Part shown: positions 37,096 to 58,391 of the stretch, in pieces
Layout of the letters: each line of letters begins with the position of its first letter
How positions within the stretch are numbered: position 1 is the stretch's first letter
NCBI RefSeq assembly: GCF_031195445.1
Contig: NZ_CP133480.1
Coordinates: forward strand, 1,970,001 to 2,034,000
DNA from: Acuticoccus sp. MNP-M23
GTDB lineage: Bacteria > Pseudomonadota > Alphaproteobacteria > Rhizobiales > Amorphaceae
Reading direction: 5' to 3'
DNA length: 64,000 nucleotides
Notes under the pieces: model-generated
The model's database searches: none
What the model was told of the DNA's origin: nothing
Seen by the model: only the letters and a program-made list of their open reading frames with translations
Translations under genes and position numbers: made by a program

Positions 37096-37100
37096 CGGGC

Positions 37101-40254: not shown

Positions 40255-40337
40255 GTATGGAGCCTTTTAGTCTTGAGTCAAGCGGCGAACGCCGCACGCA
40301 GTGTTTGCTGCGATAGATGATTTGGGGAGATCGCGCC

Positions 40338-41189
40338 GTGGAGATCAATCAGTACAATCTGACAGATGCGGTAAAAGACAGCTTCAAGGCCAAGGATGAC
40401 GCCCGTTTTACGCTGCTGCTGGAGACGATGCTCGATCATCTCCACGATTTTGTGCGCGAAACATCGCTGACGCACGAAGAGTGGATGGGCATCCTCAATT
40501 TTCTTTATGATTGCGGAAAGATCTCCACGCCAGAGCGGCATGAATTCATCTTGCTGTCAGACGTGCTGGGTCTGTCTGCGCTGGTGGACATGATCAACAC
40601 CCGCGGCGGGGCGACGGAAGGCAGCAACCTCGGCCCGTTCTATCTGGACAATGCGCCCGTGAAGGCGCTCGGCGCCCATATTGCCGACGATCGGCCCGGC
40701 GCCACCGTGCTGTGCATGGGGCAGGTGCGCGACACGCTCGGCCATCCGCTGCCCGGCGCGGTGGTCGACACCTGGCAGGCGGACGGCGCCGGCACCTATC
40801 CCATCCAGGAGGAGGGCCAGGACAAGTACGACCTGCGCGCCAAATTCACCTGTGACGACGAGGGGCGCTACTTCTACACCACCGTCCTGCCCATGCCCTA
40901 CACCGTTCCCTATGACGGGCCGGTCGGCAAGCTCCTGCGCGCCGGAGACCGACATGCGTGGCGCGCGGCGCATCTTCACTATATCGTCGGCGCACCGCGG
41001 ATGCGGCCCATCACCACCGAGGTCTTCTTTGCCAACACCGACTATCTCGACAACGACGCGGTGTTCGGCGTGCGCGACTCGCTGATCGGCAAGGTCGTGC
41101 GCATCAAGCGCGGCGAGGAACTGGGCGTGGAGGTCGAAAAGCAGCCTGACGCTAAGCTCGCGTTCGACTTCGTCCTTGCACCGGCCTGA
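40338..41189 (+). CDS. Intradiol ring-cleavage dioxygenase (hydroxyquinol type)
   Basis: This 283-residue enzyme should cleave a catechol- or hydroxyquinol-type ring between the two hydroxyl groups with non-haem Fe(III). The N-terminal helical domain (HEEWMGILNFLYDCGKI, ERHEFILLSDVLGLSALVDM) is that of hydroxyquinol 1,2-dioxygenases. The likely iron ligands are Tyr in GAGTYPIQEEG, Tyr in MPYTVPYDGP and the two His in RAAHLHYIVG. I chose GTG 40338, which follows GGGGAGA; ATG 40317 has no ribosome site. Its stop overlaps the IclR start by one base. A homologous domain is fused to a GST at 45463-47349. Confidence 0.92.
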   Translation: MEINQYNLTDAVKDSFKAKDDARFTLLLETMLDHLHDFVRETSLTHEEWMGILNFLYDCGKISTPERHEFILLSDVLGLSALVDMINTRGGATEGSNLGPFYLDNAPVKALGAHIADDRPGATVLCMGQVRDTLGHPLPGAVVDTWQADGAGTYPIQEEGQDKYDLRAKFTCDDEGRYFYTTVLPMPYTVPYDGPVGKLLRAGDRHAWRAAHLHYIVGAPRMRPITTEVFFANTDYLDNDAVFGVRDSLIGKVVRIKRGEELGVEVEKQPDAKLAFDFVLAPA

Positions 41190-42070
41190 TGGGGCGACCG
41201 CTGAAACAGGGCGAGCCGCCCGACCCGTCACGCCGTTCGGAGTTCGTCGAAGGCCTCGCGAAGGGCCTTGCCGTGCTGGAATGCTTCGACGCCGAAAATC
41301 CGGCGATGAACCTCAGCGAGGTGGCGCGCCGGGCGGGGCTGTCCCCGTCCGCGGCACGCCGCAGCCTCATCACGCTGTCGGCGCTCGGCTACATCGGCCA
41401 GGCGGGCAAGACGTTCCACCTCAAGTCCAAGCTCCTCGGCCTCGGCTCCGCCGTGCTGCTGACCGCCCGGATCGAGGAAACGCTGAACCCGGAGCTGCGC
41501 GCTCTGGTCACCCGGTTCGGCGATGCGTCGTCGGTCGCGACGCTCGACGGGCATGACGTCATCTATGTGGCGCACCATTCGGTGCAGCGAGCCCGCCGCA
41601 GGATGGCGTTCGCCGGTGCGCGCTATCCCGCAACGGCAACCTCGCTCGGCAGGGTCATTCTTGCCGGCCTCCCCCCGCACGAGCTGGACGCCTTTTTCGC
41701 GACGCTGACCCCCGCCCCGCTCACCGAGCACACCGTCGTCGACAAGAGGCGCCTGCGCGAAATCATCGACGAGACGCGCCAGAACGACCACGCCGTCTCC
41801 GTCGACCAGCTGGACTACGGGATCACGGCGCTTGCAGTGCCGATCCGCGCGCCGGACGGGGCGGTGGTCGCGGCGCTCAACACCTCCGGCTATTCGGGCT
41901 CCGTCAGCCCCGAAAGCCTGATCGGGGACCGGCTCGAAGCGCTGCGCAGTGCCGCCGCCGTCATCGCGCAGACGCTGCTGCGTTACCCGGTCCTCACCAA
42001 CATCCTGCGGGCGTCGACGGTCATCGCGCCCGCATCAACCGAAACAGAATCCTCTGAAAGGACGCCATGA
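41189..42070 (+). CDS. IclR-family regulator, PcaR/PobR-like
   Basis: This 293-residue regulator has an N-terminal winged helix-turn-helix (FVEGLAKGLAVLECFDAENP, then MNLSEVARRAGLSPSAARR) and a C-terminal effector domain (SVDQLDYGITALAVPIRAPD). The sequence type is that of regulators of protocatechuate, p-hydroxybenzoate and similar aromatic pathways. Its ATG overlaps the dioxygenase stop (TGATG) and its end overlaps the MetE-like gene by 4 bases (ATGA), so the three genes form one operon. It probably acts at the palindromes at 40221-40254. Confidence 0.93.
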   Translation: MGRPLKQGEPPDPSRRSEFVEGLAKGLAVLECFDAENPAMNLSEVARRAGLSPSAARRSLITLSALGYIGQAGKTFHLKSKLLGLGSAVLLTARIEETLNPELRALVTRFGDASSVATLDGHDVIYVAHHSVQRARRRMAFAGARYPATATSLGRVILAGLPPHELDAFFATLTPAPLTEHTVVDKRRLREIIDETRQNDHAVSVDQLDYGITALAVPIRAPDGAVVAALNTSGYSGSVSPESLIGDRLEALRSAAAVIAQTLLRYPVLTNILRASTVIAPASTETESSERTP

Positions 42071-43098
42071 CCCTTCCCCTTCTTCCCACCTCGCTCGTCG
42101 GCAGCTACGCCCAGCCGGACTGGCTGATCGACCGTGCCCTGCTGGCAAAGCGCTTTCCCCCGCGCACCCGTGCGCGCGAGCTGTGGCGCATTCCCGAGGA
42201 GCACCTTGCCGAGGCGCTGGACGATGCCACCCGCGTTGCGATCCGTGAACAGGAGGACGCCGGCCTCGACATCATCACCGATGGCGAAATCCGGCGCGAA
42301 AGCTACTCCAACCACTTTGCGACCGCGCTGGACGGGATCGACATCGACAATCCGGGCACTGCGCTCGACCGTTCGGGACACCCCAACCCGGTGCCGCGGA
42401 TCGTCTCGAAGATTTCCCGCAAGCATGCCGTTGGCGTGCGGGACGTGAAGTTCCTGAAGGCGCACACGGACCGGCCGGTCAAGATCACCGTGCCGGGCCC
42501 CTTCACGATGTCCCAGCAGGCGCAGAACGATTTTTACCCGAGCCTCGAAGACGCCGCGATGGACTATGCCGATGCCGTCCGCGCCGAGGTGGAAGACCTG
42601 TTTGCCGCTGGTGCCGACTACGTGCAGCTGGACGAGCCCTACATGCAGGCCCGCCCCGAGGCCGCCGAGGAGTACGGCCTTGCCGCCCTCAACCGCGCGC
42701 TGGACGGCGTGCGCGGCACCACGGCGGTGCACATCTGCTTCGGCTATGCGGCGATCATCCACGAGCGGCCGCAGGGCTACTCGTTCCTGCCCCAATTGTC
42801 CGCCTGCTCGTGCAACCAGATCTCAATCGAGACGGCTCAGTCCAAGCTCGACTGCTCGGTCCTGAAGGAGCTGCCGGACAAGACCATCATCCTCGGCGTT
42901 CTGGATCTCTCCGACCCCGAAGTGGAAACCCCCGAGACGATTGCGGAGCGGATCCGCCGCGGCCTCGAATATGCCTCGCCCGAGCGGGTGATCGTCGCGC
43001 CCGACTGCGGCCTCAAATATCTGCCGCGCGACGTTGCCGCCGGCAAGCTGAGGGCGATGGCGGACGGTGCCGCGATCGTTCGCGCCGAGATTTCCTGA
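42067..43098 (+). CDS. MetE-like zinc methyltransferase (C-terminal-domain type)
   Basis: This 343-residue protein corresponds to the C-terminal barrel of cobalamin-independent methionine synthase, without the N-terminal folate-binding half. Zinc ligands are visible: His and Cys in TTAVHICFGYA and a late Cys in IVAPDCGLKYLP. DYVQLDEPYMQARPE holds the conserved acidic region. Such stand-alone proteins use thiols as acceptors for methyl, alkyl or epoxide groups. Co-transcription with an intradiol dioxygenase and an aromatic-type regulator suggests removal of a methyl group from a methoxylated aromatic or attachment of a thiol, not methionine synthesis. That is inference. Confidence 0.85.
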   Translation: MTLPLLPTSLVGSYAQPDWLIDRALLAKRFPPRTRARELWRIPEEHLAEALDDATRVAIREQEDAGLDIITDGEIRRESYSNHFATALDGIDIDNPGTALDRSGHPNPVPRIVSKISRKHAVGVRDVKFLKAHTDRPVKITVPGPFTMSQQAQNDFYPSLEDAAMDYADAVRAEVEDLFAAGADYVQLDEPYMQARPEAAEEYGLAALNRALDGVRGTTAVHICFGYAAIIHERPQGYSFLPQLSACSCNQISIETAQSKLDCSVLKELPDKTIILGVLDLSDPEVETPETIAERIRRGLEYASPERVIVAPDCGLKYLPRDVAAGKLRAMADGAAIVRAEIS

Positions 43099-43129: not shown

Positions 43130-43776
43130 TACGACACGTAGGGCGCCATCGGCCGCATGATTTTGCCTTGCTCGATGGGCACGCAATCGGCCGGGAAGTC
43201 CTGCACGAAGGTGACGCCCTCGTCCTGAAGGGCGGCCAGAAAGCCGTCGAGCGCATCCATCGCACCGGTGGGGAGGTCGTGCAGCACGATCAGCGGCCAG
43301 TCCTCTTTCCCGGCCATCTCACGTGCGACGGCCGGCCAGCCGCGCGGGTTTTTCCAGTCCCCCGGCACCACGTTCCACAGAACCAGCGTGTAGGCTTCGG
43401 CGATCAGCATGTCGGACGCGGCCTCGCTGAGGAGATCCTCGTTGATCTCGCCGCCGCCGCCGTTGGGCCGGAAGAATTTGCGCGGGTGGGCCAGGTCGCC
43501 AAGCAGCGCCTCAGTCCGTGCAATCTCGATTTCGTGGGCGGCGGGGTCGAGGCTGGCCCCAATGGGGGCGAGGTGGTTGAAGGTGTGGTTGCCGATGTGG
43601 TGGCCCTCGCCATGCGCCCGCTCCGCCACGGCGCGGCGGGCAGGGTCGCGCAGCTTGTCGCCGAGCACGAAGAAGGTCGTGCGAATGTCCCGCCTCGCCA
43701 GGATGTCGAGGACGAAGGGGGTCGTTTCGGGGTCCGGGCCGTTGTCGAAGGTCAGCGTCATCTGGCGCAAATTCAT
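43129..43776 (-). CDS. Polysaccharide deacetylase (NodB homology)
   Basis: This 215-residue protein has the NodB-homology fold: TLTFDNGPDPETTPFVLDIL with the catalytic-base/metal Asp pair region, ILARRDIRTTFFVLGDKL, and GEGHHIGNHTFNHLAPIG with the two metal-binding His. It has no signal peptide, so it is probably cytoplasmic, like members that act on small amides and not on cell-wall polymers. The start overlaps the flotillin stop by 4 bases (ATGA). As the last gene of an aromatic uptake and degradation operon, it may hydrolyse an amide or N-acetyl group of a pathway compound. Confidence 0.88.
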   Translation of the reverse strand: MNLRQMTLTFDNGPDPETTPFVLDILARRDIRTTFFVLGDKLRDPARRAVAERAHGEGHHIGNHTFNHLAPIGASLDPAAHEIEIARTEALLGDLAHPRKFFRPNGGGGEINEDLLSEAASDMLIAEAYTLVLWNVVPGDWKNPRGWPAVAREMAGKEDWPLIVLHDLPTGAMDALDGFLAALQDEGVTFVQDFPADCVPIEQGKIMRPMAPYVS

Positions 43777-45425
43777 GTCTCGTCGTCGCTGGCGGTGGTG
43801 TCCTTTGCGGTCTTGGCCGCCTGCTTCATCGACAGGCCGAGCTCATCGCCGAGCGCCTTCAGCGCCGGGAGCTGCACCGCCATGCCGAGGATGGAATCCA
43901 GTGCCTGATTGACCGGCGGCTTGTCGCTGCCACCCTCCGCCCCGGCGCCCGCCTGTCCGCCGAGGCCATTGATGTTGTGGATGCGGATGGAATCGATCCG
44001 CTCGGCAGGCTTCACCATCTCGGAGATGGTCCGCGGCAGCGCCTCGATCCGCGCCAGCTCCTCGCGCATCGCCACAATGTGCGGCTCCAAAAGATTTTCC
44101 GCCTCGGCCAGAGCGCGCACGCCCTCCGCTTCGGCCATGAGGCGCTCCCGCAGCGATTTCGTGCGGCTGACCTCCGCTTCGGCCTCGGCGTTTGCGGCGC
44201 TGAGGCGGGCGGCGGCATGCCCCTCCGCCGCGTCCTTCTCTGCGAGTGCGAGAATGCGCAGGCGCTCTCCGTCCGCCTCCGCCGCCTCCTGCGCCACAAG
44301 GAGGGCGAGGGCCTTTTCGCGCTCGGCCTCGGCCATCCGGCGAGCGGTGACGATGGCCTCTTCGGCCTTCGCAGCCTCGGCGCGGGCGAAATCGGCGGCG
44401 GCACGGGCGGCGCTCTCGGCCTGCTGCCGTTCGGAAACTTTGATGCGGCGCTCCTGCTCCTGCAGTTCGAGGTCGAGCGACTTGCTGATCTCGGCGGCCT
44501 GCACCTCCAGGTCGCGCGCAATCTCGGAGGCGCGGATGGCGCGGTCGCTGGCGATGCGGGCTGCCTTGAGGCCGTTGTCCTTGGCAATGCGGGCTTCCTC
44601 CGCGGCGCGCTCGGATTCGGCTCTGCGGGCGGAGATCTCGGCCTGCTGCGCGGCCTTCCACGTTTCGATGTCGCGGTGCTGGCCGATGCGCGCCTCCTCC
44701 TCCTCGCGCTCGATCTCCAGCTTGCGGCGCGTCGCCTCCATGGCCGACAGCGTAACGGCGACCTCGGCGTCGGCGTCGATCCGCGCGCGCTCCTTCTTGG
44801 AGGTGGCGATCACCTCGGCAAGCTTGCGCATGCCCACCGCGTTGAAGGCGTTGTTCTCGTCGAGCGAGGCAAACGACGTCTGGTCCAGCGCGGTCAGCGA
44901 GACGGACTGGAGGCGGAGGCCGTTTTCCGCGAGGTCGTCGGCGATCATCTCGCGCACCTCGCGGACGTATTCCGAGCGGCCTTCGTGCAGCTCGTCCATG
45001 GTGCGGCGGGCGGCGACGGCGCGCAGCGCATCGACGAGCTTGCCCTCGACAATGTCCTTGATCTTGTCGGCGCTGAAGGTGCGGTCGCCCAGCGTCTGTG
45101 CCGCCCGCGCCACCGCCTCGGGCGTGCCGTCGACCGCGACGGCGAAGCTTGCTCCAATGTCGACGCGCAGGCGGTCCTTGGTGATGAGGCTCTGTTCGCC
45201 GGACCGCGCCACCTCCAGGCGGAGGGTGCGCATGTTCACCTCCGTCACGTCGTGGAAGTAGGGCAGCGCGATGGCGCCGCCGGCAAGGACGGTCTTCTGC
45301 CCGCCGAGGCCGGTGCGGATGAGGCTCACCTCCCGCGTTGCCTTGCGGTAGAGCCTTGCCAGCACCACCACCACCAGAACGATGATGAGGACGACAACGA
45401 CGAGAACGGTCACCAGGCCGGGCAT
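43773..45425 (-). CDS. Flotillin/SPFH-domain membrane protein
   Basis: This 550-residue protein has one N-terminal membrane helix (LVTVLVVVVLIIVLVVVVLA), an SPFH domain (about 30-200, with GGAIALPYFHDVTEV and KDRLRVDIGASFAVAVDG) and a long Ala/Glu-rich coiled coil (about 210-450). The C-terminal region has LPRTISEMVKPAERIDSIRI, the flotillin oligomerisation region seen in YqiK-type proteins. It would form membrane microdomain scaffolds. Its place inside a transport-catabolism operon, 37 bases after the GST-dioxygenase gene, is unusual; it may organise the membrane-bound permease-monooxygenase. That idea is untested. Confidence 0.92.
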   Translation of the reverse strand: MPGLVTVLVVVVLIIVLVVVVLARLYRKATREVSLIRTGLGGQKTVLAGGAIALPYFHDVTEVNMRTLRLEVARSGEQSLITKDRLRVDIGASFAVAVDGTPEAVARAAQTLGDRTFSADKIKDIVEGKLVDALRAVAARRTMDELHEGRSEYVREVREMIADDLAENGLRLQSVSLTALDQTSFASLDENNAFNAVGMRKLAEVIATSKKERARIDADAEVAVTLSAMEATRRKLEIEREEEEARIGQHRDIETWKAAQQAEISARRAESERAAEEARIAKDNGLKAARIASDRAIRASEIARDLEVQAAEISKSLDLELQEQERRIKVSERQQAESAARAAADFARAEAAKAEEAIVTARRMAEAEREKALALLVAQEAAEADGERLRILALAEKDAAEGHAAARLSAANAEAEAEVSRTKSLRERLMAEAEGVRALAEAENLLEPHIVAMREELARIEALPRTISEMVKPAERIDSIRIHNINGLGGQAGAGAEGGSDKPPVNQALDSILGMAVQLPALKALGDELGLSMKQAAKTAKDTTASDDET

Positions 45426-45462: not shown

Positions 45463-47349
45463 TCATCGGTCCTTCCGCGCCAGAACGAAATCGTAGGCGA
45501 CGCACCAGGCCGGCGATGGCACGGCGCGCCCGTCCGGCGCGCGAACGCCGGTCTTCTTCTCGAAGCTTTCGACGAGCGACTGCTTCACGCCGAACACCGG
45601 GTCGGCATCGAGGTAGGGGTCGCCCTCCAGGAAAAGCATGGTGGTGAGCCGGCGGAAGCCCGGTGCCTCGATGCGCACATGGACGTGGCCGGGGCGGACG
45701 GGCGAGCGCGCTGCGATGCGCAGGAGATCGCCGACCGTGCCGTCCTCGGGGATCGGGTAGCTGGCGGGCAGCACCGAGGTGAACCAGAACCGGCCCGCGG
45801 GGTCCGAGCGGAAGAGACCGCGCATGGCCGCCTCGTCGATCTCCGGGTTGAGGATGTCGTAGCCGCCATCGCCGTCGGCATGCCAGATGTCGATCCGCGC
45901 GCCGACGATGGGCTTTCCGTCTGTGTCGAGGACTTTGGCATTGAAGAACATCTTCTCGCCCTTGATGGGGCCGGAAATGTCCGCGCCGTTGTCGAAGACG
46001 GGGCGGTCCTCCACGAAGAACGGGCCGAGGACGGAGTTCTCCGTCGCGCCGCTCGGGAAGCGGTGGTTGATGAGGTCGACGCGGGCGGTGGCGCCCATCA
46101 CGTCGGACAGGAGGATGAACTCCTGCCGCCCGCCGACGCTGAGCTGCCCGGTGCGCGTCAGGAATTCGATGGCAAATTCCCACTCCTCCTCGGTCGGCTC
46201 CACCTCCTCCAGAAACGCGTGGAGATGGCGGGTGAACGCCGAGAGCACTTTCTTGGCGCGCGGGTTCGGCGTATCGCGGAATGTGGCGAGGACGGCGGCG
46301 GTCAGCGTGTCGTCGCGCACGTCGCGGCCATGGCCTGCCAAGGGTTCGTGCAGGCGCCGTGCGGCGGGCATCGGCAGCGTCGCCGCGGCGGGTTTTGCGC
46401 GCGCCGATGTGCCGGGGCGTTCAAGGCCGGCGGCGCGCATCGTCTCGCGGGCGGCAAGGCGCGTGGCGTAGGCGGCGACATGATTGCGCGGCGCGCCGTT
46501 CAGCGCATGGCCGCCGGTCCACGCGATGTCGAGGCCGAGCGAGGCGAGATGGCCAAGCGCGGCGGCCCACGCAACGTCGGCCAGGGTGAAGGCCTCGCCG
46601 GTGATCCACTGCCTGCCGTCGGCGAGGCGGGTGTCGAGGCCTTCGATCAGCGTCAGCACCTCCTCTACGGCGCCGCGCATCAACTCCGCCGATTGGGCAA
46701 AGACCTTGGCGGCGGCCTCCTTGCGGATGGCGGCATCGTAGGCCGCGATCAGGCGCGGATGGCCGATCGAGAGCGAGCGCCCCTCCATCATCTTGCGGAT
46801 GCGCGCATCGTGGACGCCGCGCACGGCCTCGCGCAGCGGCTCGGGCCTTGTGTCGCCGCCGGGGTGCGCGCCGTAGGGGAGCGCCTCGAAGGGGGCGGCG
46901 TCGACGAGCGCGGTCTCGCGGGCGATTTCGGTGCGAAGGCGCTGGGGGGAAAGGTCCGGGCCGGGGAGGGCGGCTATGTGGTCGAGCATCCGGAGAGGGT
47001 CGAGGATGACGCGCTCGGCGGCGGGGTCCACCAGCGCCGGGACGGCGGCGGGGTCGATGCCGTCGTGGCGCACGCTGGCGCGGCCGGAAAAGCCGTCGAC
47101 CATGGGGCGGCCGTCGATGCCGTCGAGGCGCAGGCGCACATAGGCGGGGTGGCCGGCATCGAAGCGGCGGCCGAGGATCTGCATCTCGTGCGCGGTTGCG
47201 GCGGCGCCCTTTTCGGCAAGCGCCAGCCGCACGGCCTTCGACCAGAGCGAGGGGGCGGCGTGGAAGAGGACGAGGCCGCCGTGGCCTTGCGCGGCACCGA
47301 GGGGCGCGCGGGCAGCGTCAAGGCGCTCCTGGAACTTGCGTTCGCTCAT
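45463..47349 (-). CDS. Glutathione S-transferase fused to intradiol dioxygenase
   Basis: This 628-residue protein joins two enzymes. The N-terminal third to half (about 20-310) is a GST: thioredoxin-like start LFHAAPSLWSKAVRLALAEK and the C-domain motif WITGEAFTLADVAWAAALGH. After a short linker, residues about 340-628 form a hydroxyquinol-type dioxygenase with helical domain (EEEWEFAIEFLTRTGQLSVG) and iron ligands Tyr in DGGYDILNPE, Tyr in PASYPIPEDG and two His in RPGHVHVRIEAPG. The ATG at 47349 overlaps the upstream stop (ATGA). Both active sites look complete. GST chemistry could dehalogenate, isomerise or detoxify the ring-cleavage substrate or product. Confidence 0.92.
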   Translation of the reverse strand: MSERKFQERLDAARAPLGAAQGHGGLVLFHAAPSLWSKAVRLALAEKGAAATAHEMQILGRRFDAGHPAYVRLRLDGIDGRPMVDGFSGRASVRHDGIDPAAVPALVDPAAERVILDPLRMLDHIAALPGPDLSPQRLRTEIARETALVDAAPFEALPYGAHPGGDTRPEPLREAVRGVHDARIRKMMEGRSLSIGHPRLIAAYDAAIRKEAAAKVFAQSAELMRGAVEEVLTLIEGLDTRLADGRQWITGEAFTLADVAWAAALGHLASLGLDIAWTGGHALNGAPRNHVAAYATRLAARETMRAAGLERPGTSARAKPAAATLPMPAARRLHEPLAGHGRDVRDDTLTAAVLATFRDTPNPRAKKVLSAFTRHLHAFLEEVEPTEEEWEFAIEFLTRTGQLSVGGRQEFILLSDVMGATARVDLINHRFPSGATENSVLGPFFVEDRPVFDNGADISGPIKGEKMFFNAKVLDTDGKPIVGARIDIWHADGDGGYDILNPEIDEAAMRGLFRSDPAGRFWFTSVLPASYPIPEDGTVGDLLRIAARSPVRPGHVHVRIEAPGFRRLTTMLFLEGDPYLDADPVFGVKQSLVESFEKKTGVRAPDGRAVPSPAWCVAYDFVLARKDR

Positions 47350-50246
47350 GACGCCCACCCCAGAATGCGCCGCATGACACCACCCAGTTCGCCGGCGGGG
47401 TCGGCGGCCAGCATTTGCGCGCGCCAGCCGACATACCCGTCCGGGCGGACGAGGACGCAGCCGGAATCGCTGACGCCGGAGACGAGCGCCCAGTCGCCGA
47501 AGGTGTCGTTGATGGCGCAGCCGGGGCCGATCTGGAGTGCGCGGACGTCGGCGCGGGTTTCGGCCGAGACGCGGGCGGCGGCTTCGACCCAGCCCGCGCC
47601 CGAGACGCCGGTGAGCACGGTGAAGCGGCCCCGGCCCACAAGGTCGAGCGTGGAGAGGGTTTCGCGGTCACGCTCGACCCAGACGTGGGGGAGGCGCGCG
47701 CCGGGCCATGTGGTGGGGTGGTAGTAGAGCTCGCGGTCACGGGTGTATTCGGGCTCGGGCGTGCCGTCCGGCACCACGGCGGCGGAGCGGTAGCGCTGGC
47801 CCATCTCCACGCCGTGGCAGTTGAATTCGTACGACTTGTTGCGGATCTGCGCGTTGAGTGCCTTGCGCTTGGCCTCCGCCTCCACCGTCGACGCCTTGCG
47901 GGTGTCGAGCTGGCGGCGCATCTCCTCCTGCGTCTCGGTCTCGGTGATGCCGAGCGTGTCGAAGATCGGCAGCGTGTCGGTGATCGACTTGTTGGCGCGG
48001 TTGACGATCTGCTTGCCGACAGGCTGGCGCTCGTCGTTGAAGGTTTCCAGCAGCGACGGGTCGGCGGTGCCGTCCAGAACGAGTTTGAGCTTCCAGGCGA
48101 GGTTGTAGGCGTCCTGGATGGAGGTGTTTGAGCCGAGCCCGTTGGTGGGCGGATGGCGGTGCACCGCGTCGCCCATGCAGTGCACGCGCCCGACCGAATA
48201 ATGCCGCGCGACAATGTTGTTCACCGCCCAGTAGCTGACCCGCGTCACCTTCAGCGGCACCTCTTCGCCGATCAGGCGGAAGAGGATCTGGCGGATTTCC
48301 TCGTCGGAATAATTGGGGCGGCCCTTGGCAATGTCGTAGCTCCACATGCCGAGCCATTTCTTCCACGGGCGGATCATCCTGAGCACGCCGGCGCCGATGC
48401 CGCCCGCCGAACCCGGCTGAAAAATCCAGTAGAGGACGGAGGGGCGGTGCTTCACCAGATGGCTGAGGTCGGCGTCGAACTCGATGTTCATGGAGCCGGC
48501 GAGGTCGGCCTTGCCTTCCAGCGGCAGGCCAAGGTCTTCGGCAATCCGGCTGCGGCCACCGTCGGCGCCGATCATGTATTTTGCGCGGATGCGGTAGGTC
48601 TGATCGGCGACGCGGTCGTGCACGGTGCAGACGACGCCGTTCTCGTCCTGCGTGTGGCTGATGTACTCGGTCTTGAAGCGGACGAGACAGCCCTCGCGCA
48701 TCGCCTTGCCGAAGATGATCGGCTCCAGCAGCGTCTGCGGGATGTCGACCATTTTCGACGGGCTCGCCAGCTCGTAGTCGGCGCGGCGGGCGGGGTGGTT
48801 GCCCCATGTGAGCAACCGGCCGACCTCTTCGCCGGCGAGGGATTCGCAGAAGACGTTGTTGCCCATCAGCTCCTGCGCCACGGCTTCCTTGGTAACCTCA
48901 TCCTCCACGCCAAGCTCGCGCAAAATCTCCATGGTGCGCTGGTTGGTGATGTGGGCGCGCGGCATGTTGGCGAGCCAGGAATATTTCTCGATCATCACGT
49001 TGGGGACGCCGTAGCCGGACAGGAGCGCCGCAGAGGCGACACCGGCCGGCCCGGAGCCGACGATGAGGACGTCGGTTTCGATATCGAACATGGTTGGAAC
49101 CTCGAGGGGCACATCCGCCCCGCTGATGCCGGGCGCAGGGGGCAGCCGCATTTCGCGCACGGGCTGGGTGTAGTCCGGCACCGGCGTGTCGGGCCCGATC
49201 AGCCTGCGGCGGGTGGGAAAGAGCGAGAAGTCTGTGCGCTCGACGACAAAACCCCAGATCCCCTTGGGCGCCACCAGCATGACGAGGATGGCAAGCCCGC
49301 CCAGCGCCATCAGGTACCAGGTGCCGAAGTCCGCCAGCCAGTTTTGCAGCGCGAACAGGATGAGCGCGCCGATGATGGGGCCTTCCAGCGTGCCGATCCC
49401 GCCGATGACGACGATGAAGAGGACGAACGCCGTCCAGTCGATCACCGAGAACGCGCTTTGCGGGGTGATGGACGCCTTCTGGTAGTAGATCAGCGCGCCG
49501 GTGATGGCAGCGCCCACCGCGGCGAAGACGTAGACGGCGAACTTGATGCGGCGGGTGTCGATGCCGAGGCTTTCGGCGGCATCCGGGTTGTCGCGCACGG
49601 CGGACAGGGCGAGGCCGTTGCGGGTGCGCAGGAATGCGTAGATCGCGCCGATGACGGCGACGGCCAGCACCAGCGCGATCCAGTAGGAGAGGATGTCGCG
49701 CGCATGGGAGGAGCGCACGTCGAACAGGGTCGCGACCGTGTCGATGCCGACGATGCTGCGCGCAACGTCGGACGGGAGCGAGGTGCCGGTGCCGCCGCCA
49801 AGCGTCTTCCACTGCGCGAACAGGAGCCGGTAGACCTCGGCTGCGACCCAGGTGCCGATGGCGAAATAGGCCCCTTCGAGGCGGAAGAGGATGAAGCCTG
49901 TCGGGATCGCCATCACGCCGCCGATGATGCCGGCGCACAGCATGGCAAGCAGGGGATCGAGCCCCGCGAGGATCGCAAGGCCGAAGCCGGCGTAGGCGCC
50001 AAGGCCGACGAACGCCTGCTGGCCGATGGAGACGAGCCCGCCAAAGCCCGCGAGAAGGTTCCAGCACTGGGCCAGCGTGATCATGGTGAGGACGAAGAAG
50101 AGGTCCTGCAGCAGCGATCGCGAGATGATCGCAGGCGCTGCCAGAAGCGCCACCACGCCAACGCCCATCACGGCGAGCGCGATCGCCGAAGCGCGGGTGG
50201 ATTTCGCGACCTTGTAGCGGGTGGGATCGAGGGCGGGACCGGCCAT
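47346..50246 (-). CDS. LivM-type permease fused in frame to FAD monooxygenase
   Basis: One uninterrupted 966-codon frame. Residues about 1-350 are a branched-chain-amino-acid-type ABC permease (LivM) with NLLAGFGGLVSIGQQAFVGL and RDNPDAAESLGIDTRRIKFA. After a Pro-rich linker, residues 386-966 are a phenol-hydroxylase/TfdB-like FAD monooxygenase with VLIVGSGPAGVASAALLSGY, YMIGADGGRSRIAEDLGLPL and VHCMGDAVHRHPPTNGLG. The junction Met (ATG 49091) has a weak GAGG upstream, so separate internal initiation is possible. The ATG at 50246 overlaps the LivH stop (TGATG), and the end overlaps the GST-dioxygenase start. The enzyme part would hydroxylate an aromatic compound using NAD(P)H and O2. Confidence 0.85.
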   Translation of the reverse strand: MAGPALDPTRYKVAKSTRASAIALAVMGVGVVALLAAPAIISRSLLQDLFFVLTMITLAQCWNLLAGFGGLVSIGQQAFVGLGAYAGFGLAILAGLDPLLAMLCAGIIGGVMAIPTGFILFRLEGAYFAIGTWVAAEVYRLLFAQWKTLGGGTGTSLPSDVARSIVGIDTVATLFDVRSSHARDILSYWIALVLAVAVIGAIYAFLRTRNGLALSAVRDNPDAAESLGIDTRRIKFAVYVFAAVGAAITGALIYYQKASITPQSAFSVIDWTAFVLFIVVIGGIGTLEGPIIGALILFALQNWLADFGTWYLMALGGLAILVMLVAPKGIWGFVVERTDFSLFPTRRRLIGPDTPVPDYTQPVREMRLPPAPGISGADVPLEVPTMFDIETDVLIVGSGPAGVASAALLSGYGVPNVMIEKYSWLANMPRAHITNQRTMEILRELGVEDEVTKEAVAQELMGNNVFCESLAGEEVGRLLTWGNHPARRADYELASPSKMVDIPQTLLEPIIFGKAMREGCLVRFKTEYISHTQDENGVVCTVHDRVADQTYRIRAKYMIGADGGRSRIAEDLGLPLEGKADLAGSMNIEFDADLSHLVKHRPSVLYWIFQPGSAGGIGAGVLRMIRPWKKWLGMWSYDIAKGRPNYSDEEIRQILFRLIGEEVPLKVTRVSYWAVNNIVARHYSVGRVHCMGDAVHRHPPTNGLGSNTSIQDAYNLAWKLKLVLDGTADPSLLETFNDERQPVGKQIVNRANKSITDTLPIFDTLGITETETQEEMRRQLDTRKASTVEAEAKRKALNAQIRNKSYEFNCHGVEMGQRYRSAAVVPDGTPEPEYTRDRELYYHPTTWPGARLPHVWVERDRETLSTLDLVGRGRFTVLTGVSGAGWVEAAARVSAETRADVRALQIGPGCAINDTFGDWALVSGVSDSGCVLVRPDGYVGWRAQMLAADPAGELGGVMRRILGWAS

Positions 50247-51112
50247 CAGTCGAACGCCCTTGGGAAAAGGCCGCGTGGGCGCACCAGCAGGACGAGGAGG
50301 AACACGACGTGACCCGAAAGGGTCTGCCATTCGGGCGAGATCTGCGCGCCGATGCTCTGCGCAAGGCCGAGGATGATGCCGCCCGCCAGGGTGCCCCAGA
50401 AGCTGCCGAGCCCGCCGATGATGACCGCCTCGAACGCGAAGATCAGCCGTGAGGGGCCGATCAGCGGGTCGAACGTGGCGCGCGCGCCGAGGTAGAGGCC
50501 GGCGATGGCGACCACAACCAGCGAAAGCGCCATGGCGAGCGAGAAGATGCGGGAATTGTCAATGCCCATCAGCTGGGCGATTTCGGGGTTGTCGGACGTG
50601 GCGCGGAAGGCGCGGCCCGTCTCCGTTCGGTAGAACAGCCAGTTGAGGAACACGATCACCAGCACGGCAGACGCGAAGGTGAGGAGCGGCACCACGCCGA
50701 CCGCGAGCCCGCCGCCAAGCGCAATGGAGGCATCGCCCAGCGCGCCGAAGGGAAGCCGGCGCGTGTCGGCGGAGAACGCCTCAAGCATCCCGTTCTGCAG
50801 GATGATGGAGAGGCCGAAGGTGACGAGGAGCGGCGGGAGGATGTCCTTGCCCAAGGTCCGGTTCAGCAGGAACGATTGCAACAGGTAGCCGAACGCGAAC
50901 ATCGCGATGCCGCCGAGGACTGCCGCGACGATGATCGGCAGGCCCAGCGCTTCCACGCCGATGAGGATGGCGAATGCCGCCACCACCATCAGGTCGCCGT
51001 GCGCAAGGTTGACGAGGCGCATCACGCCGAAGATGAGGCTGAGCCCGGTGGCGAAGAGGGCGTAGAGGCCGCCGAGCAGAATGCCCTGGATGAGGGTATC
51101 GGCAACGATCAT
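50246..51112 (-). CDS. livH: Branched-chain amino acid-type ABC permease LivH
   Basis: This 288-residue inner-membrane permease begins with LIQGILLGGLYALFATGLSL and contains MRLVNLAHGDLMVVAAFAIL and FRATSDNPEIAQLMGIDNSR, hallmarks of LivH. It has about eight membrane segments. It partners with the LivM-like part of the next gene. In this operon the cargo is probably an aromatic acid or phenol, not an amino acid, because a monooxygenase and a dioxygenase follow. Confidence 0.95.
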   Translation of the reverse strand: MIVADTLIQGILLGGLYALFATGLSLIFGVMRLVNLAHGDLMVVAAFAILIGVEALGLPIIVAAVLGGIAMFAFGYLLQSFLLNRTLGKDILPPLLVTFGLSIILQNGMLEAFSADTRRLPFGALGDASIALGGGLAVGVVPLLTFASAVLVIVFLNWLFYRTETGRAFRATSDNPEIAQLMGIDNSRIFSLAMALSLVVVAIAGLYLGARATFDPLIGPSRLIFAFEAVIIGGLGSFWGTLAGGIILGLAQSIGAQISPEWQTLSGHVVFLLVLLVRPRGLFPRAFD

Positions 51113-51115: not shown

Positions 51116-51817
51116 TCAGCCCCCGAAATACGCGCGGGCGATCTGGTCGCGCCGGAGGTTATCGGGGCGGCCGGTGAGTGTCACACGGCCTTCGAGGAGG
51201 CAGTAGATGCGGTCGGCGACGGCAAGCGCCTGGCTGATGTTCTGCTCGACCACCACCACGGAGGCGCCCTCGGCCCGGATCTCGTCGAGGGCTGCGTAGA
51301 TGTCCTTGATCACGGAGGGGGCGAGGCCGAGGCTGATCTCGTCGCAGAGGAGAAGGCGCGGGTTGGACATCAGCGCCCGGCCGAGCGCCACCATCTGCTG
51401 CTGGCCGCCCGACAGCGAGGTGGCAGCCTGCGTGCGGCGCTCCTTCAGTACGGGGAAGAGGCGATAGATGGCGTCGAGGCTCCAGTGGCCGCGCACCTTG
51501 CGGCCGTAGTTGCCGATCATCAGGTTTTCTTCCACCGAGAGGGAGGGGAAGAGCTTGCGCCCCTCCGGCACCAGGGCGATGCCGCGTGCCATGATCTCGG
51601 CGGGCTTCATGCCGCCGATGGTCCGGCCGTCGAATTCCACCATGCCTGCCGGGGTCTGCCGCAGGCCCGTGATGGCGCCCAGCAGCGTCGACTTGCCGGC
51701 CCCGTTGGCACCGACAATGGCGATGGTCTCGCCCTCGTCCACATGGGCGTCGATGCCGTAGAGCGCCTGAAAATCGCCGTAAAATGCGGTGAGTTCGCGG
51801 GTTTCGAGGAGCTTCAC
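51116..51817 (-). CDS. livF: Branched-chain amino acid-type ABC ATPase LivF
   Basis: This 233-residue ATPase has Walker A VGANGAGKST, the typical LivF segment ALVPEGRKLFPSLSVEENLM, signature LSGGQQQMVALGRALM and Walker B LLLCDEISLGLAP. GTG 51817 follows GGGAGG. An in-frame extension to 51886 would overlap the LivG end and has no ribosome site. Confidence 0.95.
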   Translation of the reverse strand: MKLLETRELTAFYGDFQALYGIDAHVDEGETIAIVGANGAGKSTLLGAITGLRQTPAGMVEFDGRTIGGMKPAEIMARGIALVPEGRKLFPSLSVEENLMIGNYGRKVRGHWSLDAIYRLFPVLKERRTQAATSLSGGQQQMVALGRALMSNPRLLLCDEISLGLAPSVIKDIYAALDEIRAEGASVVVVEQNISQALAVADRIYCLLEGRVTLTGRPDNLRRDQIARAYFGG

Positions 51818-51848
51818 GGGGCCGCCTCCCGCCGTTCGCCGCGCGCGG

Positions 51849-52565
51849 TCATACTTCCATTCCGAGATAGATGCGGCGGACGGCATCGCTGGCCATCACC
51901 GCCTCGGGATCGCCCTCGCCGATGATCTTGCCGAAATCGAGCGCAACGAGGCGGGACACGACGGCAAGCAGCGCGTGGGTGACGTGCTCAATCCACACGA
52001 TGGTGGTGCCGTCCGCGTTGATCTGGCGGATCGTCTCGATCAGCGAGGTGCATTCGGCATCGGTGAGGCCGCCGGCAATTTCGTCCAAGAGCAGGAGCCG
52101 CGGCCGGGTGGCGAGCGCGCGCGCCATTTCGAGGCGTTTGCGCTCCAGCAGCGAGAGGGAGCCTGCCGGGAGGTTTGCCTTGGCGAGGAGGTCGGTGCGG
52201 TGGAGGACTTCGACCACACTCCCTTGCTCGGCGCGCTCCGAACCGCCTGCGCCGAAACAGGCGGCGACGGAGACATTCTCGTAGGTCGTCATCTGCTCGA
52301 ACGGCTGCGGGATCTGGAAGCTGCGGCCGATGCCGAGGTTGACGCGCCGCCGCGCCGGCAGGCGGCTGATCTCCGCCCCGTCGAGCCGGATCGAGCCGCC
52401 TTGCGGCGCAACGCGGCCGGTGATGAGGTTGAAGAGCGTCGACTTCCCCGCCCCGTTGGGGCCGATGATGCCGAGCGCCTCCCCCTCCGCGACATCGAGC
52501 GAGATGTCGTCGGCGACGGTCACCGCCCCGAAGGCGCGGTTGAGGTTGCGGATTTCCAGAAGCAC
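51849..52565 (-). CDS. livG: Branched-chain amino acid-type ABC ATPase LivG
   Basis: This 238-residue ATPase has Walker A GPNGAGKST, a LivG-type segment GIGRSFQIPQPFEQMTTYEN and Walker B LLLLDEIAGGLTDAE. The ABC signature, usually LSYGQ or LSGGQ, reads LSLLERKRLEMARALATR. This variant is known in some LivG-like proteins of aromatic-compound operons, so it need not mean loss of activity. Confidence 0.93.
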   Translation of the reverse strand: MLLEIRNLNRAFGAVTVADDISLDVAEGEALGIIGPNGAGKSTLFNLITGRVAPQGGSIRLDGAEISRLPARRRVNLGIGRSFQIPQPFEQMTTYENVSVAACFGAGGSERAEQGSVVEVLHRTDLLAKANLPAGSLSLLERKRLEMARALATRPRLLLLDEIAGGLTDAECTSLIETIRQINADGTTIVWIEHVTHALLAVVSRLVALDFGKIIGEGDPEAVMASDAVRRIYLGMEV

Positions 52566-52597: not shown

Positions 52598-53899
52598 TCA
52601 GCTGATCGGCCTCATTTCACTGGCGACCGGAATGTCCGGGTAGGTCTGGTTGTCGACGATGACAAGCTCGAACCGGCCGTTGTCGCCCTTGCGCCACTGG
52701 CCGCCCACCAGCGGCGTCTTGGTCACGTTCTTCTGGGCGAAGGGGGGCAGGTTCGCACCGTCCCACTTGATGGGGCCGACGATGGTGTTCATGTCGGTGG
52801 CAGCAATGGTCGCGGCCACGGCGTCGCCGTCGCGCGGATCGTCGGTGCGTTTCAGAACGTCGACCAGCACCTCGAACAGCGCATGCGCGAAGCCGAGCGG
52901 CTGGGTCCACTGGTTGCCGGTCGCGTCCTCGTAGCCGGCGCAGACCTCGCCCGCGTTCTGCCCCGTCAGCGAGGACTTGAACGGGTGGACGTTGGACCAC
53001 CACACCTCGGACGACAGGTTTTCGGCGGCGTCGCCGATGGCGTTGACGGCGGAGGGAAACAGGATCGCCTTGCCGACGGATGCGGCCTTGGGGCGGTAGC
53101 CCTGCTGCGCGGCCTGGGTCCAGAAGGTGGCAAAGTCCGGCGGGAGGACGACGCCGGTGAGGAGCTGGCAATCGCCGTTCTTGAACGCCGAGATCTGGGC
53201 GGAAAAGTCGTCCTGCAGGTTCTCGTAGCGGCCGGGGTCGAGGAGCTTGAAGTCGGCTGCCGTCAAAGCCGGCGGAAAGCCCACCTGCGGGTCGCCCCAG
53301 GCGTTGCCGTCGGCATCGTTGGGGAACAGGCCGCCGACCATGCGGTTGGTGTCCAGCTGGTTCCACATGTTGGTGAAGACGGCAATCACGTCCTCCAGCC
53401 CCCAGAAGAAGTGGTAGCCATAGTCGAATGGCTTCCAGCTCGACGGGTCCGTCGGGTTGCCCTGCCGGCCGATGAACCACGGCTGCCACGGCGCCAGCGA
53501 AGAGATCACGGGGTACTGCTCGATCTCGGCGATGGTGGAGACCGGGTTGGTGGTCTCCGGCGTGTTGCCCACCAGCATGATGTCGATCTCATCGTCGATT
53601 ATGAGTTCCTTGGCGACGTCTGCGGCGCGGTTGGGGTTGGACTGGCTGTCCTTGACGATGACTTCGAGGTTGTAGGTGCGGCTGCCGGACTTGATGCCGC
53701 CCGAAACCGCCTTCAGCACACCGTCGATGATGTACTGGTCGACCTCGGAGAAGGCCGCGAGCGGCCCGGTCTGCGGCGTGACGTAGCCGACGCGCACGGT
53801 GCGGGCCTGGGCGTGGACGGCAGGCGCGAACAGACCAACAGCAGCCGTGGCGGCGCCAGCTTTAAGGAACGTGCGCCGGTTTGTCTCAAGGCGTTTCAT
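52598..53899 (-). CDS. ABC importer solute-binding protein, Liv/aromatic type
   Basis: This 433-residue exported protein has a Tat-like signal (TNRRTFLKAGAATAAVGLFA) and the periplasmic-binding fold used by branched-chain amino acid and aromatic-acid importers. Motifs include VRVGYVTPQTGPLAAFSEVD, ELIIDDEIDIMLVGNTPETT and a C-terminal region with FGHALFEVLVDVLKR-like helices (FAHALFEVLVDVLKRTDD). It is the first gene of the 10-kb minus-strand operon. It is larger than LivJ (about 370 residues). The operon suggests an aromatic ligand. Confidence 0.9.
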   Translation of the reverse strand: MKRLETNRRTFLKAGAATAAVGLFAPAVHAQARTVRVGYVTPQTGPLAAFSEVDQYIIDGVLKAVSGGIKSGSRTYNLEVIVKDSQSNPNRAADVAKELIIDDEIDIMLVGNTPETTNPVSTIAEIEQYPVISSLAPWQPWFIGRQGNPTDPSSWKPFDYGYHFFWGLEDVIAVFTNMWNQLDTNRMVGGLFPNDADGNAWGDPQVGFPPALTAADFKLLDPGRYENLQDDFSAQISAFKNGDCQLLTGVVLPPDFATFWTQAAQQGYRPKAASVGKAILFPSAVNAIGDAAENLSSEVWWSNVHPFKSSLTGQNAGEVCAGYEDATGNQWTQPLGFAHALFEVLVDVLKRTDDPRDGDAVAATIAATDMNTIVGPIKWDGANLPPFAQKNVTKTPLVGGQWRKGDNGRFELVIVDNQTYPDIPVASEMRPIS

Positions 53900-54317
53900 G
53901 GGGATCCTCCGGATCGAATTATTTTTCTTGTTTTCGTCTTTGGCGAGACCATAACGCAGTCCCTCCGTCTTCCCAAGTGAGTGGTTGCATTCTGGTGGGA
54001 GCTGACGACGACTCCAGCCGGCAATGAGAGGTAATGGCGCGCGCCTTTGCAGCGCAGATCCATGCGTCTTCTCATGATCACCCTTTTGTTTGCAGAACGC
54101 CCGGCGGCCGGGCACGGGGGCGGCTCGCCGCCGAATGGAAAGCGGGACGATTCCTGCCTGCGCCACGGCGATCAGAACTGTGGGCACACCGCGACATAAA
54201 CCCGCGGGCAGGCCGACCGGATGAAGGTGCTGCAGCCGAGGAGGTTCGCGAACGAGATCTGCCGGCCGATCTCCCAAGGATGCCAGCTGCGAAGCCCAGC
54301 CCGTCGCGCGTTGGCCG
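53900..54317. other. Upstream region of aromatic operon; possible coding remnant
   Basis: About 420 bases between the ROK regulator stop and the binding-protein gene. The last 100 bases (53900-53990) should hold the minus-strand operon promoter. On the minus strand at about 54182-54317, an open stretch reads EIGRQISFANLLGCSTFIRS and ends in VYVAVCPQF; it has coding-like composition but matches nothing I know. I see no operator-like palindrome. Confidence 0.35.
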
Positions 54318-55699: not shown

Positions 55700-55796
55700 T
55701 TATTGACTTGGGAAAAGTCCGGAGCCTAACCTCGCCATTATCCAAGGCCCGTTTTTCAGCGGGGCCGTGGTTTGTTGGGGCGCAAAGGAGGCTTCT

Positions 55797-58391
55797 TTGC
55801 AAGAAGCACCGGACATTTCCGAGCGGGGGGGAGACTCCGATCCCGCGGAAGCTGAAGAGGGCAAGGTTCTCTTGCGGCTGGTCGGCGCCACCAAGCGGTT
55901 CGGCGGCACGGTGGCCATCCACAACGTCTCGTTCGACATTCGCGCGGGCGAAGTGCTGGCGCTTCTGGGGGAGAACGGTGCGGGCAAGAGCACCTGCGTC
56001 AAGGTGCTTGCCGGTGTCTATCCGCCCAACGAGGGCAGCGTGGAAATGGGCGGCAAGGCGCGGGTCTGGGACTCGCCGCTGAGCGCGCAGCGTGCCGGCA
56101 TTGCGGTGATGCACCAGCATCCGGGCCTTTTTCCGGACCTCAGCGTTGCCGAAAACATCTTCTTCGGCCGTTTCCCCGAAACATCGCTAGGGGTGATCGA
56201 CACCGGCGCGATGGCCGACCGCGCGGCCGAAATTCTGGACACCATCGGGCTTGATGTTTCGCCGTCGCAACCGCTGCGGACACTGAGCGTCTCCGAGCAG
56301 CAGCTTGTCGAAGTGGCCCGCGCGCTGTCGTCGGACGCCGACATTCTCATCATGGACGAGCCGACCGCGGCGCTTTCCCACCGCGAGGTGCAGAAGCTTT
56401 TTGCGGTGGTCGCTCAACTGAAGGCGCGCGGCGTCGGCATCGTCTTCGTCGGTCACCGGATGGACGAGATCTTCGACGTGTCCGACCGCATTGCCGTCCT
56501 GCGCGATGGCGAGCTTCTGACGGTGGAGCCGGCTGATGTGCTGACCCGGCAGGACGCGATCAACCTGATGGCCGGCCGCACCCTCGTCGCCGGATATCCG
56601 GAGCGCGATCAACCGCCCGGCGATGTCATCCTGCAAGTGGAGGATCTCAGCCGTGCCGGCGAATATTCCGGCATTTCGTTCAATGTGCGCGCGGGCGAGG
56701 TGTTGGGGATAGGCGGGCTGGTCGGCAGCGGCCGGACTGAGGTGGCGCGCACGATCTTCGGCATCACGCGGCCCAGCAGCGGCGACATTGCGATCGACGG
56801 CGCGCCGGTCCGCATCGGTTCGCCGGGGGAGGCCATGCGCAAGGGCATTGCCTACGTGTCCGAGGACCGCCTCTCGCAAAGCCTGATTGCCGAGTTTCCC
56901 ATCTTCGTGAACGGCTCCCTCACCGTGCTGGAGCGCTGCACCCACCACGGCCTGTTGCAGCGCGAGCGCGAAATCGGCGCGGTGAAGGAGCAGCTGGAGC
57001 GGCTGAAGCTGCGCTATGCCAGCTTCGACCAGGAAATTTCCGGCCTGTCCGGCGGCAACCAGCAAAAGGTGGTGCTGGCGAAATGGGTCGCCACCCGGCC
57101 CCGCATCCTGATTCTCGACGAGCCGACCCAGGGCATCGACGTCCAGTCGAAGGCCGAAGTCCATGCGATGATCGCCGACCTTGCCAGACAGGGGCTGGCG
57201 ATCGTCCTCATCTCTTCGGAGATGCCTGAGCTTCTGGGGATGTGCGACCGCATCGTCGTCCTCAATGAAGGCCGCCAGGTCGCAACGTTCGATCGCGCCG
57301 AGGCAACCGCCCCCAAGGTGCTGGAGGCCGCCACCCGCAGCGCGGCGCCGGTGGACGCCGGACCCGAAACGCATGAGGTGCCGGAGGCACCGGCGCAGCA
57401 GTCCTTTGCGCAATCGCTCCGCAATCTTCTCAAGCGGCGCGAGGTGGGGCTTCTGGTTGCGATCCTTGCCGTCATCATCCCGGTGACGATCATCAACCCG
57501 CGCATGATGAGTCCGGCGAACCTGACGCCGCTCACCATGGACGCGGCTCTCCTCGGCTTCGTCGCACTCGGCCAGATGCTCGTCATTCTGACGCGCAACA
57601 TCGACCTTTCCGTCGCGTCCGTGATCGGGCTGACGGCCTACACCTCCGCGGGCCTGATGTCCGCCAACCCGGAACTCCCGGCCATTGCCGGGGTGGCCTT
57701 CGCCTGCGTGCTGGGCGCAGGGCTCGGCAGCATCAACGGCCTCATCATCGCCTATGGGCGCGTGCCGTCCATCGTTGCCACGCTGGGCACAATGTCGATC
57801 TTTCGCGGCCTCCACTCGCTGTGGGCCGGCGGCGACCAGATCAGCGCCGACGAGGTTCCGGCGCACTGGCTCGCCCTTGCAGGCACCGAGGTGCTCGGCA
57901 TTCCGCTGATCGTGCTTCTGGCGGTGGTCGTGCTGGCCGTCGCGGCCTTCGTCCTCAGCCGCACCCGGTGGGGGCGCGAGCTGTATGGCGTCGGCTCGAA
58001 CCCCGGCGGTGCCGACCTCATCGGCATACCCTCCACCCGGCGCATCTTCAGCGCGTTCGTTCTGGCCGGCGCGCTGGCGGGGCTGACGGGTGCCCTGTGG
58101 GCCTCGCGCTATGCCACGGTGGATGCCCGCGTCGCCTTCGGTTTCGAGTTGACGGTGGTGGCTGCGGTGGTGGTCGGCGGTGTCGCGATCCGCGGGGGAT
58201 CGGGCACCGTTCTCGGCATCGTGCTCGGTGCGCTGGCGCTTCTCATCATCCGCAACGGGCTCGTCCTGGTGCGCGTCGATCCGCTCTGGCTGCAGGGGAT
58301 CTACGGCCTCGTCATTCTGGTGGCGATCACCATCGACGCCAAGATCGCGGCCCGCCACGAACGAAGATTGCAGCGCAGGGCCACGCCATGA
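55797..58391 (+). CDS. Sugar ABC importer: double ATPase fused to permease
   Basis: This 864-residue protein combines an RbsA-type double ATPase with an RbsC-type permease. ATPase 1 (about 20-245) has Walker A GENGAGKST and Walker B ILIMDEPTAAL. ATPase 2 (about 260-500) has the degenerate GLVGSGRTEVAR, signature LSGGNQQKVVL and ILILDEPTQG. From about 540 onward come eight or more membrane segments, with ILTRNIDLSVASVIGLTAYT and VGSNPGGADLIGIPSTRRIF of sugar permeases. I chose TTG 55797 because AAGGAGG lies 5 bases upstream. Gene order matches lsrACDB and RhaT-P-Q-S with the first two genes fused. Confidence 0.92.
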   Translation: MQEAPDISERGGDSDPAEAEEGKVLLRLVGATKRFGGTVAIHNVSFDIRAGEVLALLGENGAGKSTCVKVLAGVYPPNEGSVEMGGKARVWDSPLSAQRAGIAVMHQHPGLFPDLSVAENIFFGRFPETSLGVIDTGAMADRAAEILDTIGLDVSPSQPLRTLSVSEQQLVEVARALSSDADILIMDEPTAALSHREVQKLFAVVAQLKARGVGIVFVGHRMDEIFDVSDRIAVLRDGELLTVEPADVLTRQDAINLMAGRTLVAGYPERDQPPGDVILQVEDLSRAGEYSGISFNVRAGEVLGIGGLVGSGRTEVARTIFGITRPSSGDIAIDGAPVRIGSPGEAMRKGIAYVSEDRLSQSLIAEFPIFVNGSLTVLERCTHHGLLQREREIGAVKEQLERLKLRYASFDQEISGLSGGNQQKVVLAKWVATRPRILILDEPTQGIDVQSKAEVHAMIADLARQGLAIVLISSEMPELLGMCDRIVVLNEGRQVATFDRAEATAPKVLEAATRSAAPVDAGPETHEVPEAPAQQSFAQSLRNLLKRREVGLLVAILAVIIPVTIINPRMMSPANLTPLTMDAALLGFVALGQMLVILTRNIDLSVASVIGLTAYTSAGLMSANPELPAIAGVAFACVLGAGLGSINGLIIAYGRVPSIVATLGTMSIFRGLHSLWAGGDQISADEVPAHWLALAGTEVLGIPLIVLLAVVVLAVAAFVLSRTRWGRELYGVGSNPGGADLIGIPSTRRIFSAFVLAGALAGLTGALWASRYATVDARVAFGFELTVVAAVVVGGVAIRGGSGTVLGIVLGALALLIIRNGLVLVRVDPLWLQGIYGLVILVAITIDAKIAARHERRLQRRATP

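Follow-up and report, generated by a model that had tools for sequence, protein, structure and literature searches.

Why should one subunit of an uptake channel and a catabolic enzyme be encoded as a single protein? The question arises from a window of the Acuticoccus sp. MNP-M23 genome (the window being the whole stretch of DNA analysed, 64 kb), in which positions 47346–50246 of the reverse strand form one 966-codon frame, with its ATG at 50246, a TGA ending at 47346, and no internal stop. The single chain matches BPD_transp_2 (1.1e-32), FAD_binding_3 (1.3e-108), and Rng_hyd_C (3.1e-20) in Pfam, and comprises three parts, all on the reverse strand—a LivM-type ABC permease domain (fusion residues 1–345; 49212–50246), recognized by PF02653, a BtuC-type fold, and dN/dS; a linker (residues 346–385; 49092–49211), delimited by alignment, dN/dS, and pLDDT; and an HbpA-type FAD monooxygenase domain (residues 386–966; 47349–49091, with the stop codon at 47346–47348), recognized by Pfam, structure, and catalytic residues. 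An earlier note on this DNA had described a permease running without a stop into a monooxygenase through a linker of about 40 residues, with both parts complete. This description holds: coordinates and translation agree on 966 codons, the linker of the window protein has 40 residues, the FAD_binding_3 profile is matched over positions 1–349 of 349, and the permease domain lies above the PF02653 cut-off.

The LivM–monooxygenase frame is open in seven genomes, with 68–96% full-length identity among the proteins and a linker that is always in frame and 39–41 residues long (40 in five genomes, 41 in L029, and 39 in L135). Beyond the window genome, these are a genome of the same genus (G007, locus L025), the isolate Thetidibacter halocola KMU-90 (L026), two Silicimonas bins (L027 and L028), a Geminicoccaceae bin (L029), and a genome from the Thetidibacter family (G795, L135). 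Homologues aligning across the junction, which the earlier note had proposed to look for, thus exist in seven genomes, and the sequencing error near 49100 that it feared might hide a stop is excluded because the frame is open in all of them. On the sequence evidence, then, LivM–monooxygenase is a true gene fusion in which both parts are complete, and, with no stop between livM and the monooxygenase, a ribosome translating LivM would enter the enzyme unless the frame shifts.

The permease part scored 113.7 bits against PF02653 (cut-off 26.8) and only 103.3 bits against the NCBIfam LivM model NF008450 (cut-off 366), so that it is better described as LivM-type than as E. coli LivM itself. No solved relative was found by sequence at an E-value of 0.001. 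The predicted fold resembled BtuC most closely (Z 14.6, rmsd 5.2 over 262 residues, with model residues 11–326 on BtuC 1–324), a score barely above the Z of ~13 common for helical bundles; the top nine fold matches were nonetheless all ABC importer permeases (Z 11.7–14.6), and the tenth dropped to 7.7. LivM and BtuC-type permeases thus share PF02653, operon partners, and fold with this part of the fusion, which differs from them by the 581-residue enzyme at its C-terminus. ABC permease–ATPase fusions likewise combine transporter genes in one ORF, but they join transporter parts to one another and not to a catabolic enzyme. A few kilobases away, on the forward strand (55767–58391), lies an 874-residue ORF in which two matches to ABC ATPases are combined with a BPD_transp_2 permease domain, a fused ABC transporter in its own right.

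Both termini of BtuC are, we assume, cytoplasmic, and FAD and NADH are cytosolic; the enzyme should then face the cytoplasm, and the cytoplasmic placement put forward in the earlier note is probably right, given the LivM model over BtuC and the location of the two cofactors. In the full-chain model (mean pLDDT 84.3, pTM 0.63), both domains were well predicted, while residues 348–386 fell below a pLDDT of 50. The linker is thus predicted to be disordered, and would serve as a flexible tether. The model predicted no docking of the domains at the channel mouth, and the more specific proposal that the enzyme sits at the inner mouth of the channel found no backing, as a pTM of 0.63 and a linker pLDDT below 50 leave the domains unplaced.

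Turning to the enzyme, both monooxygenase domains are present (PF01494, matched over 1–349 of 349; PF21274, over 2–105 of 107), as are GSGPAG, GADGGRS, and GDAVHRHPP, which we take to be flavin motifs. The best solved relatives are HbpA (598 bits) and PieE of piericidin biosynthesis (6u0p; 546 bits), and the predicted enzyme superimposes on the best HbpA chains with TM-scores of 0.96–0.97 at 46% identity over ~580 columns. A classical phenol 2-monooxygenase was rejected as a candidate, with NF006144 at 118.6 bits (cut-off 560) and the fungal phenol hydroxylase 1pn0 at 78.7 bits. The phenol-hydroxylase-type label given earlier is accordingly replaced—judged by its sequence, the enzyme is of the 2-hydroxybiphenyl 3-monooxygenase (HbpA) type. 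In HbpA, His48 and Asp117 are reported as catalytic and Arg242 as an active-site residue; replacing His48 or Asp117 with alanine abolished product formation, whereas the same replacement at Arg242 left ~15% conversion (PMC4515095). The equivalents in the fusion, residues 432, 501, and 623, are kept in 7/7 sequences. Fold and catalytic residues are thus shared with the HbpA of Pseudomonas azelaica, although solved HbpA has no permease part and its substrate need not be that of the fusion enzyme. After the fusion itself, the protein of the window genome that matches the enzyme part with the best E-value is 29% identical to it.

The fusion belongs to a compact run of genes on one strand, in the order binding protein, LivG, LivF, LivH, LivM–monooxygenase, and glutathione S-transferase (GST)–dioxygenase, and so shares an operon with a second permease, two ATPases, and a binding protein. 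The LivH-type permease (50246–51112; PF02653, 4.2e-30) has a stop that overlaps the LivM start. Upstream of it lie the LivF-type ATPase (51116–51886; PF00005, 7.7e-29) and the LivG-type ATPase (51849–52565; PF00005, 2.4e-29; PF12399 at 1.7e-4, below cut-off). The true start of the LivF ORF may lie further in, as several relatives align only from about residue 20–26. The periplasmic substrate-binding protein (52598–53899; NF011933 at 8.6e-09, below cut-off) starts at residue 127 of the ORF 52598–54277, with a predicted SD of -9.5 at that ATG, and has syntenic homologues of 72–90% identity in six loci of the fused clade. Directly after the operon, still on the reverse strand, a 550-residue ORF (43773–45425) is flotillin-like by reading of its translation. 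Farther on, on the forward strand (40317–43095), genes for a PcaR-type IclR regulator and a MetE-like protein come after another intradiol dioxygenase, which shares 40% identity with that of the operon; on the opposite strand nearby are a TRAP transporter (35231–38189), a CoA transferase, and a citryl-CoA lyase-like gene.

The last gene of the operon is itself a fusion (45463–47349, reverse strand), whose ATG overlaps the monooxygenase stop and which joins a GST domain (~46369–47349) to a hydroxyquinol-type intradiol dioxygenase (~45466–46323). The dioxygenase falls below the cut-off of all five intradiol NCBIfam models listed; its best solved relative is the hydroxyquinol 1,2-dioxygenase 1tmx, at 259.7 bits versus 121.8 for chlorocatechol 1,2-dioxygenase. 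Of the seven LivM–monooxygenase genomes, six carry GST–dioxygenase as an uninterrupted frame; in the seventh, G007, contig C83 breaks off with the GST part, and the dioxygenase part is found on contig C195. Among 394 genomes of the Thetidibacter family, at an E-value limit of 1e-90, it occurs in exactly the three with LivM–monooxygenase (G777, G779, and G795), and in G795 some 54 kb of a single contig separates the two fusions, which means that adjacency does not explain their pairing there. A GST match on the dioxygenase was found in none of eight unfused alphaproteobacterial operons, those mapped ones in which LivM precedes the enzyme (L133, L134, L010, L011, L013, L136, L037, and L070). The genes of the seven genomes share ancestry, however, and the pairing is therefore not seven independent events.

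What the pathway consumes is suggested by its neighbors. A maleylacetate reductase lies just upstream of the binding protein in four clade loci (L163, L164, L027, and L028), which, together with a dioxygenase closest to the hydroxyquinol type, makes a dihydroxybenzene or a substituted phenol the likeliest substrate. No close maleylacetate reductase was found in the window genome (best 30% identity), and the stretches L165 and L025 showed no such gene either, which leaves the later pathway uncertain.

These observations can be assembled into the following reading, to which we would give a probability of roughly 0.6. Because no stop codon separates livM from the monooxygenase gene, the two would yield one protein of ~105 kDa, the LivM part of which, to go by family and operon, pairs with LivH, LivF, LivG, and the binding protein to form an ABC importer, with a flexible tether of ~40 residues holding the HbpA-type enzyme on its cytoplasmic side. 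Judging from the families involved, the importer would bring in a phenolic compound, the tethered enzyme would hydroxylate it next to its hydroxyl group using NADH, FAD, and O2, and GST–dioxygenase would then cleave the ring of the resulting catechol or hydroxyquinol. The fusion would thus be a single-origin, selected importer carrying a cytoplasmic hydroxylase that acts on the entering phenolic before ring cleavage; selection probably kept it by coupling uptake to immediate trapping and by fixing the ratio of enzyme to importer, whereas direct hand-over of the substrate from importer to enzyme is a guess.

Could the same gene also make a free enzyme? We consider it possible that the gene has two products, the LivM start giving the fusion and the junction ATG a free, soluble monooxygenase, so that tethered and soluble pools coexist—a tentative idea that we hold at somewhat worse than even odds. 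The junction ATG (49089–49091) follows a GAGG at 49100–49103, a possible internal start by anti-SD prediction. The ribosome site there had been called weak, but it is predicted to be better than that: the anti-SD duplex, at -7.1 kcal/mol, ranks first of 23 internal ATGs in the fusion ORF and fifth of 75 ATGs in eight ORFs of the window. An SD-like sequence precedes the junction ATG in 7/7 fused genes (predicted -6.6 to -9.9 kcal/mol), ranking first in four, second in two, and third in one, among 18–26 internal ATGs per ORF; the junction Met is likewise conserved in 7/7, and L135 keeps GGAGGAG despite its differing linker. Set against this, randomizing the seven upstream codons by each gene's own synonymous usage revealed no selection on synonymous sites for the junction SD, the real codon choice being no better than random recoding (single P 0.12–0.58, combined 0.42, n = 7; P 0.31 with five less related sequences). 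The junction comparison covered 52 rows, six fused (with L001 and L009 representing the window and L025) and 46 unfused, and 25 of the 46 unfused rows had a predicted ribosome site stronger than the best fused one. With synonymous choice so ordinary, the SD motif may simply be dictated by the encoded residues, or be left over from an earlier state. The earlier note had allowed for either a fusion or separate initiation; the fused frame stands, and internal initiation retains the universal SD-like sequence but gains no selection signal from the recoding.

How the fusion arose bears on whether it confers anything. In the monooxygenase tree, the seven fused sequences among 130 rows formed one clade (support 100, a single label change), and the same seven among 82 rows did so in the LivM tree (96/99), which fits a single origin of the fusion from genes that relatives carry within one operon. 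Fused status in the monooxygenase tree was assigned by an in-frame test, under which the out-of-frame overlaps L013, L037, L039, L103, L113, L120, and L133 are not fused; that tree omits loci whose monooxygenase match was incomplete or split, and both leave out L001, L009, and L126–L130 as duplicates of the window and L025–L029. The trees differ in their neighbors—the fused enzymes group with nine Bradyrhizobium and two other rows (18 rows, support 97, whose branching order the tree does not settle), whereas the fused LivM clade stands beside all 62 other close rows together. Gene order varies too: in Bradyrhizobium L031 and L043 it is dioxygenase, monooxygenase, binding protein, LivG, LivF, LivH, LivM. 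The plasmid operons of Rhizobium sp. C104 and Shinella sp. PSBB067 have the order found here (LivG-LivF-LivH-LivM-monooxygenase-dioxygenase), with LivM and enzyme 55–58% identical to the fusion parts; unlike in the window, the two are separate genes, the dioxygenase has no GST match, and a maleylacetate reductase and a further dioxygenase lie upstream.

The fusion is rare. It was found in 2/397 genomes drawn from the order, in 1/385 of the class (the window genome itself), in 3/394 of the Thetidibacter family, and in 1/31 of the family of the Geminicoccaceae genome; the first three draws scored the two best candidates per genome, and some matches were judged by query range alone (a start of at least 345), namely 8/38 in the order and 22/52 in the Thetidibacter family. 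Such rarity implies that unfused genes serve most bacteria well, which counts against our preferred reading, as does a further LivM of 54–56% identity elsewhere in the fused genomes G779 and G780, and as would any free enzyme made from an internal start.

A bleaker view is that a stop codon was lost by accident between tolerant neighbors, without benefit, the halves working as if apart. The mutation would have been easy, for an unfused livM lies directly upstream in 45 of the 130 monooxygenase loci (and within ~1 kb in 13 more), and among the 46 unfused rows, 23 have a livM stop that runs into the start of the monooxygenase, by one base in 15 (TGATG or TAATG), by four in one, and by more in seven. 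By sequence, the fusion thus required little change to a gene order already in place, and it was kept in only one clade among the rows examined. Yet that clade contains no unfused row although its synonymous sites are far diverged (pooled pS ~0.5), and a second pathway fusion, GST–dioxygenase, accompanies it.

The linker itself speaks to the same issue. Its first 15 residues, RRRLIGPDTPVPDYT, are identical in 7/7 fused sequences, while the second half is variable; the LFP(I/V)RRRL-like part is common to most of the 46 unfused LivM tails, and the motif that follows it in the fused linkers occurs in none of them (0/46). Pooled dN/dS (Nei-Gojobori counts with Jukes-Cantor correction; six fused sequences, L135 left out) was 0.206 for the linker, compared with 0.194 for LivM (residues 20–340) and 0.167 for the enzyme, and split into 0.077 for the first 22 linker residues and 0.457 for the last 18. 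Variable columns at codon positions 1/2/3 numbered 19/11/36 of 40 across the linker (n = 7), made up of 4/2/18 of 20 in the first half and 15/9/18 of 20 in the second (chi-square 3.0). By these patterns the linker evolves as coding sequence. Its second half is, on the same measures, a spacer under loose constraint, a point for the accident and against our preferred reading, whereas the strong constraint on the first half (dN/dS 0.08) is hard to square with an accident. We also simulated 40 linker codons evolving without constraint, under a simplified model with substitutions alone and indels ignored; all seven linkers stayed open with a chance of 0.005 when the rate was scaled to synonymous divergence, of 0.03 when it was halved, and of 0.16 when it was set very low. 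The simulation supports selection for an open linker frame without proving it. On balance, we judge an accident unlikely, at rather less than one chance in three.

A further idea, which strikes us as more doubtful still, is that the tether serves the enzyme rather than transport, recruiting it to the membrane where hydrophobic phenols partition, by whichever route these come in, or letting its oligomers cluster importers. HbpA is reported to be tetrameric (PMC4515095), so the enzyme part could, speculatively, tie several importers together, and a disordered linker would permit several importers per enzyme tetramer; what the enzyme is joined to, however, is one particular subunit of the importer encoded in its own operon and not a general membrane anchor. 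Finally, that the fused frame is an artefact of sequencing or assembly is a negligible prospect: four of the genomes (L025, L027, L028, and L029) have records titled MAG, but the frame is common to seven genomes, including the strain Thetidibacter halocola KMU-90, whose record bears no such title, and an error or a lost stop in a single assembly was rejected on that ground.

Returning to the importer with a tethered hydroxylase, every part comes from a known family, and what may be new is that a flavin hydroxylase of catabolism is fused to an ABC permease. No LivM–monooxygenase or permease–monooxygenase fusion was found in the titles and abstract starts of the open-licence PubMed Central literature, and, to our knowledge, the tethering of enzymes to transporters has mostly been approached with engineered fusions. 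According to a survey of metabolic gene fusions, the partners are most often transporters, regulators, and metabolic enzymes, and the reasons given for fusing them are bottlenecks, toxicity, competing pathways, and complex assembly; the survey also notes that channelling by fusion alone has been challenged; its main text names no ABC permease–monooxygenase fusion and uses the word "permease" 0 times (PMC4921024).

Whether a physical tie to a partner benefits an enzyme is a disputed question (PMC4921024), and a fusion found in a few alphaproteobacteria permits a direct test of whether an enzyme tied to its own uptake channel helps the cell. Nature seems to have set up the experiment already, in that the fusion of an ABC permease with what is probably the first enzyme to act on the imported aromatic compound apparently formed once and was kept under constraint, with unfused sister operons as controls and an isolate at hand. 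A bolder extension, which we regard as improbable at about the level of a one-in-four chance, is a vectorial machine in which the importer delivers its aromatic substrate to locally concentrated, tethered hydroxylase whose tetramers bridge several importers, the product passes to the co-inherited GST–dioxygenase, and the internal start tunes a second, soluble pool; if true, it would be a natural membrane-bound catabolic assembly coupling ABC import to oxygenation.
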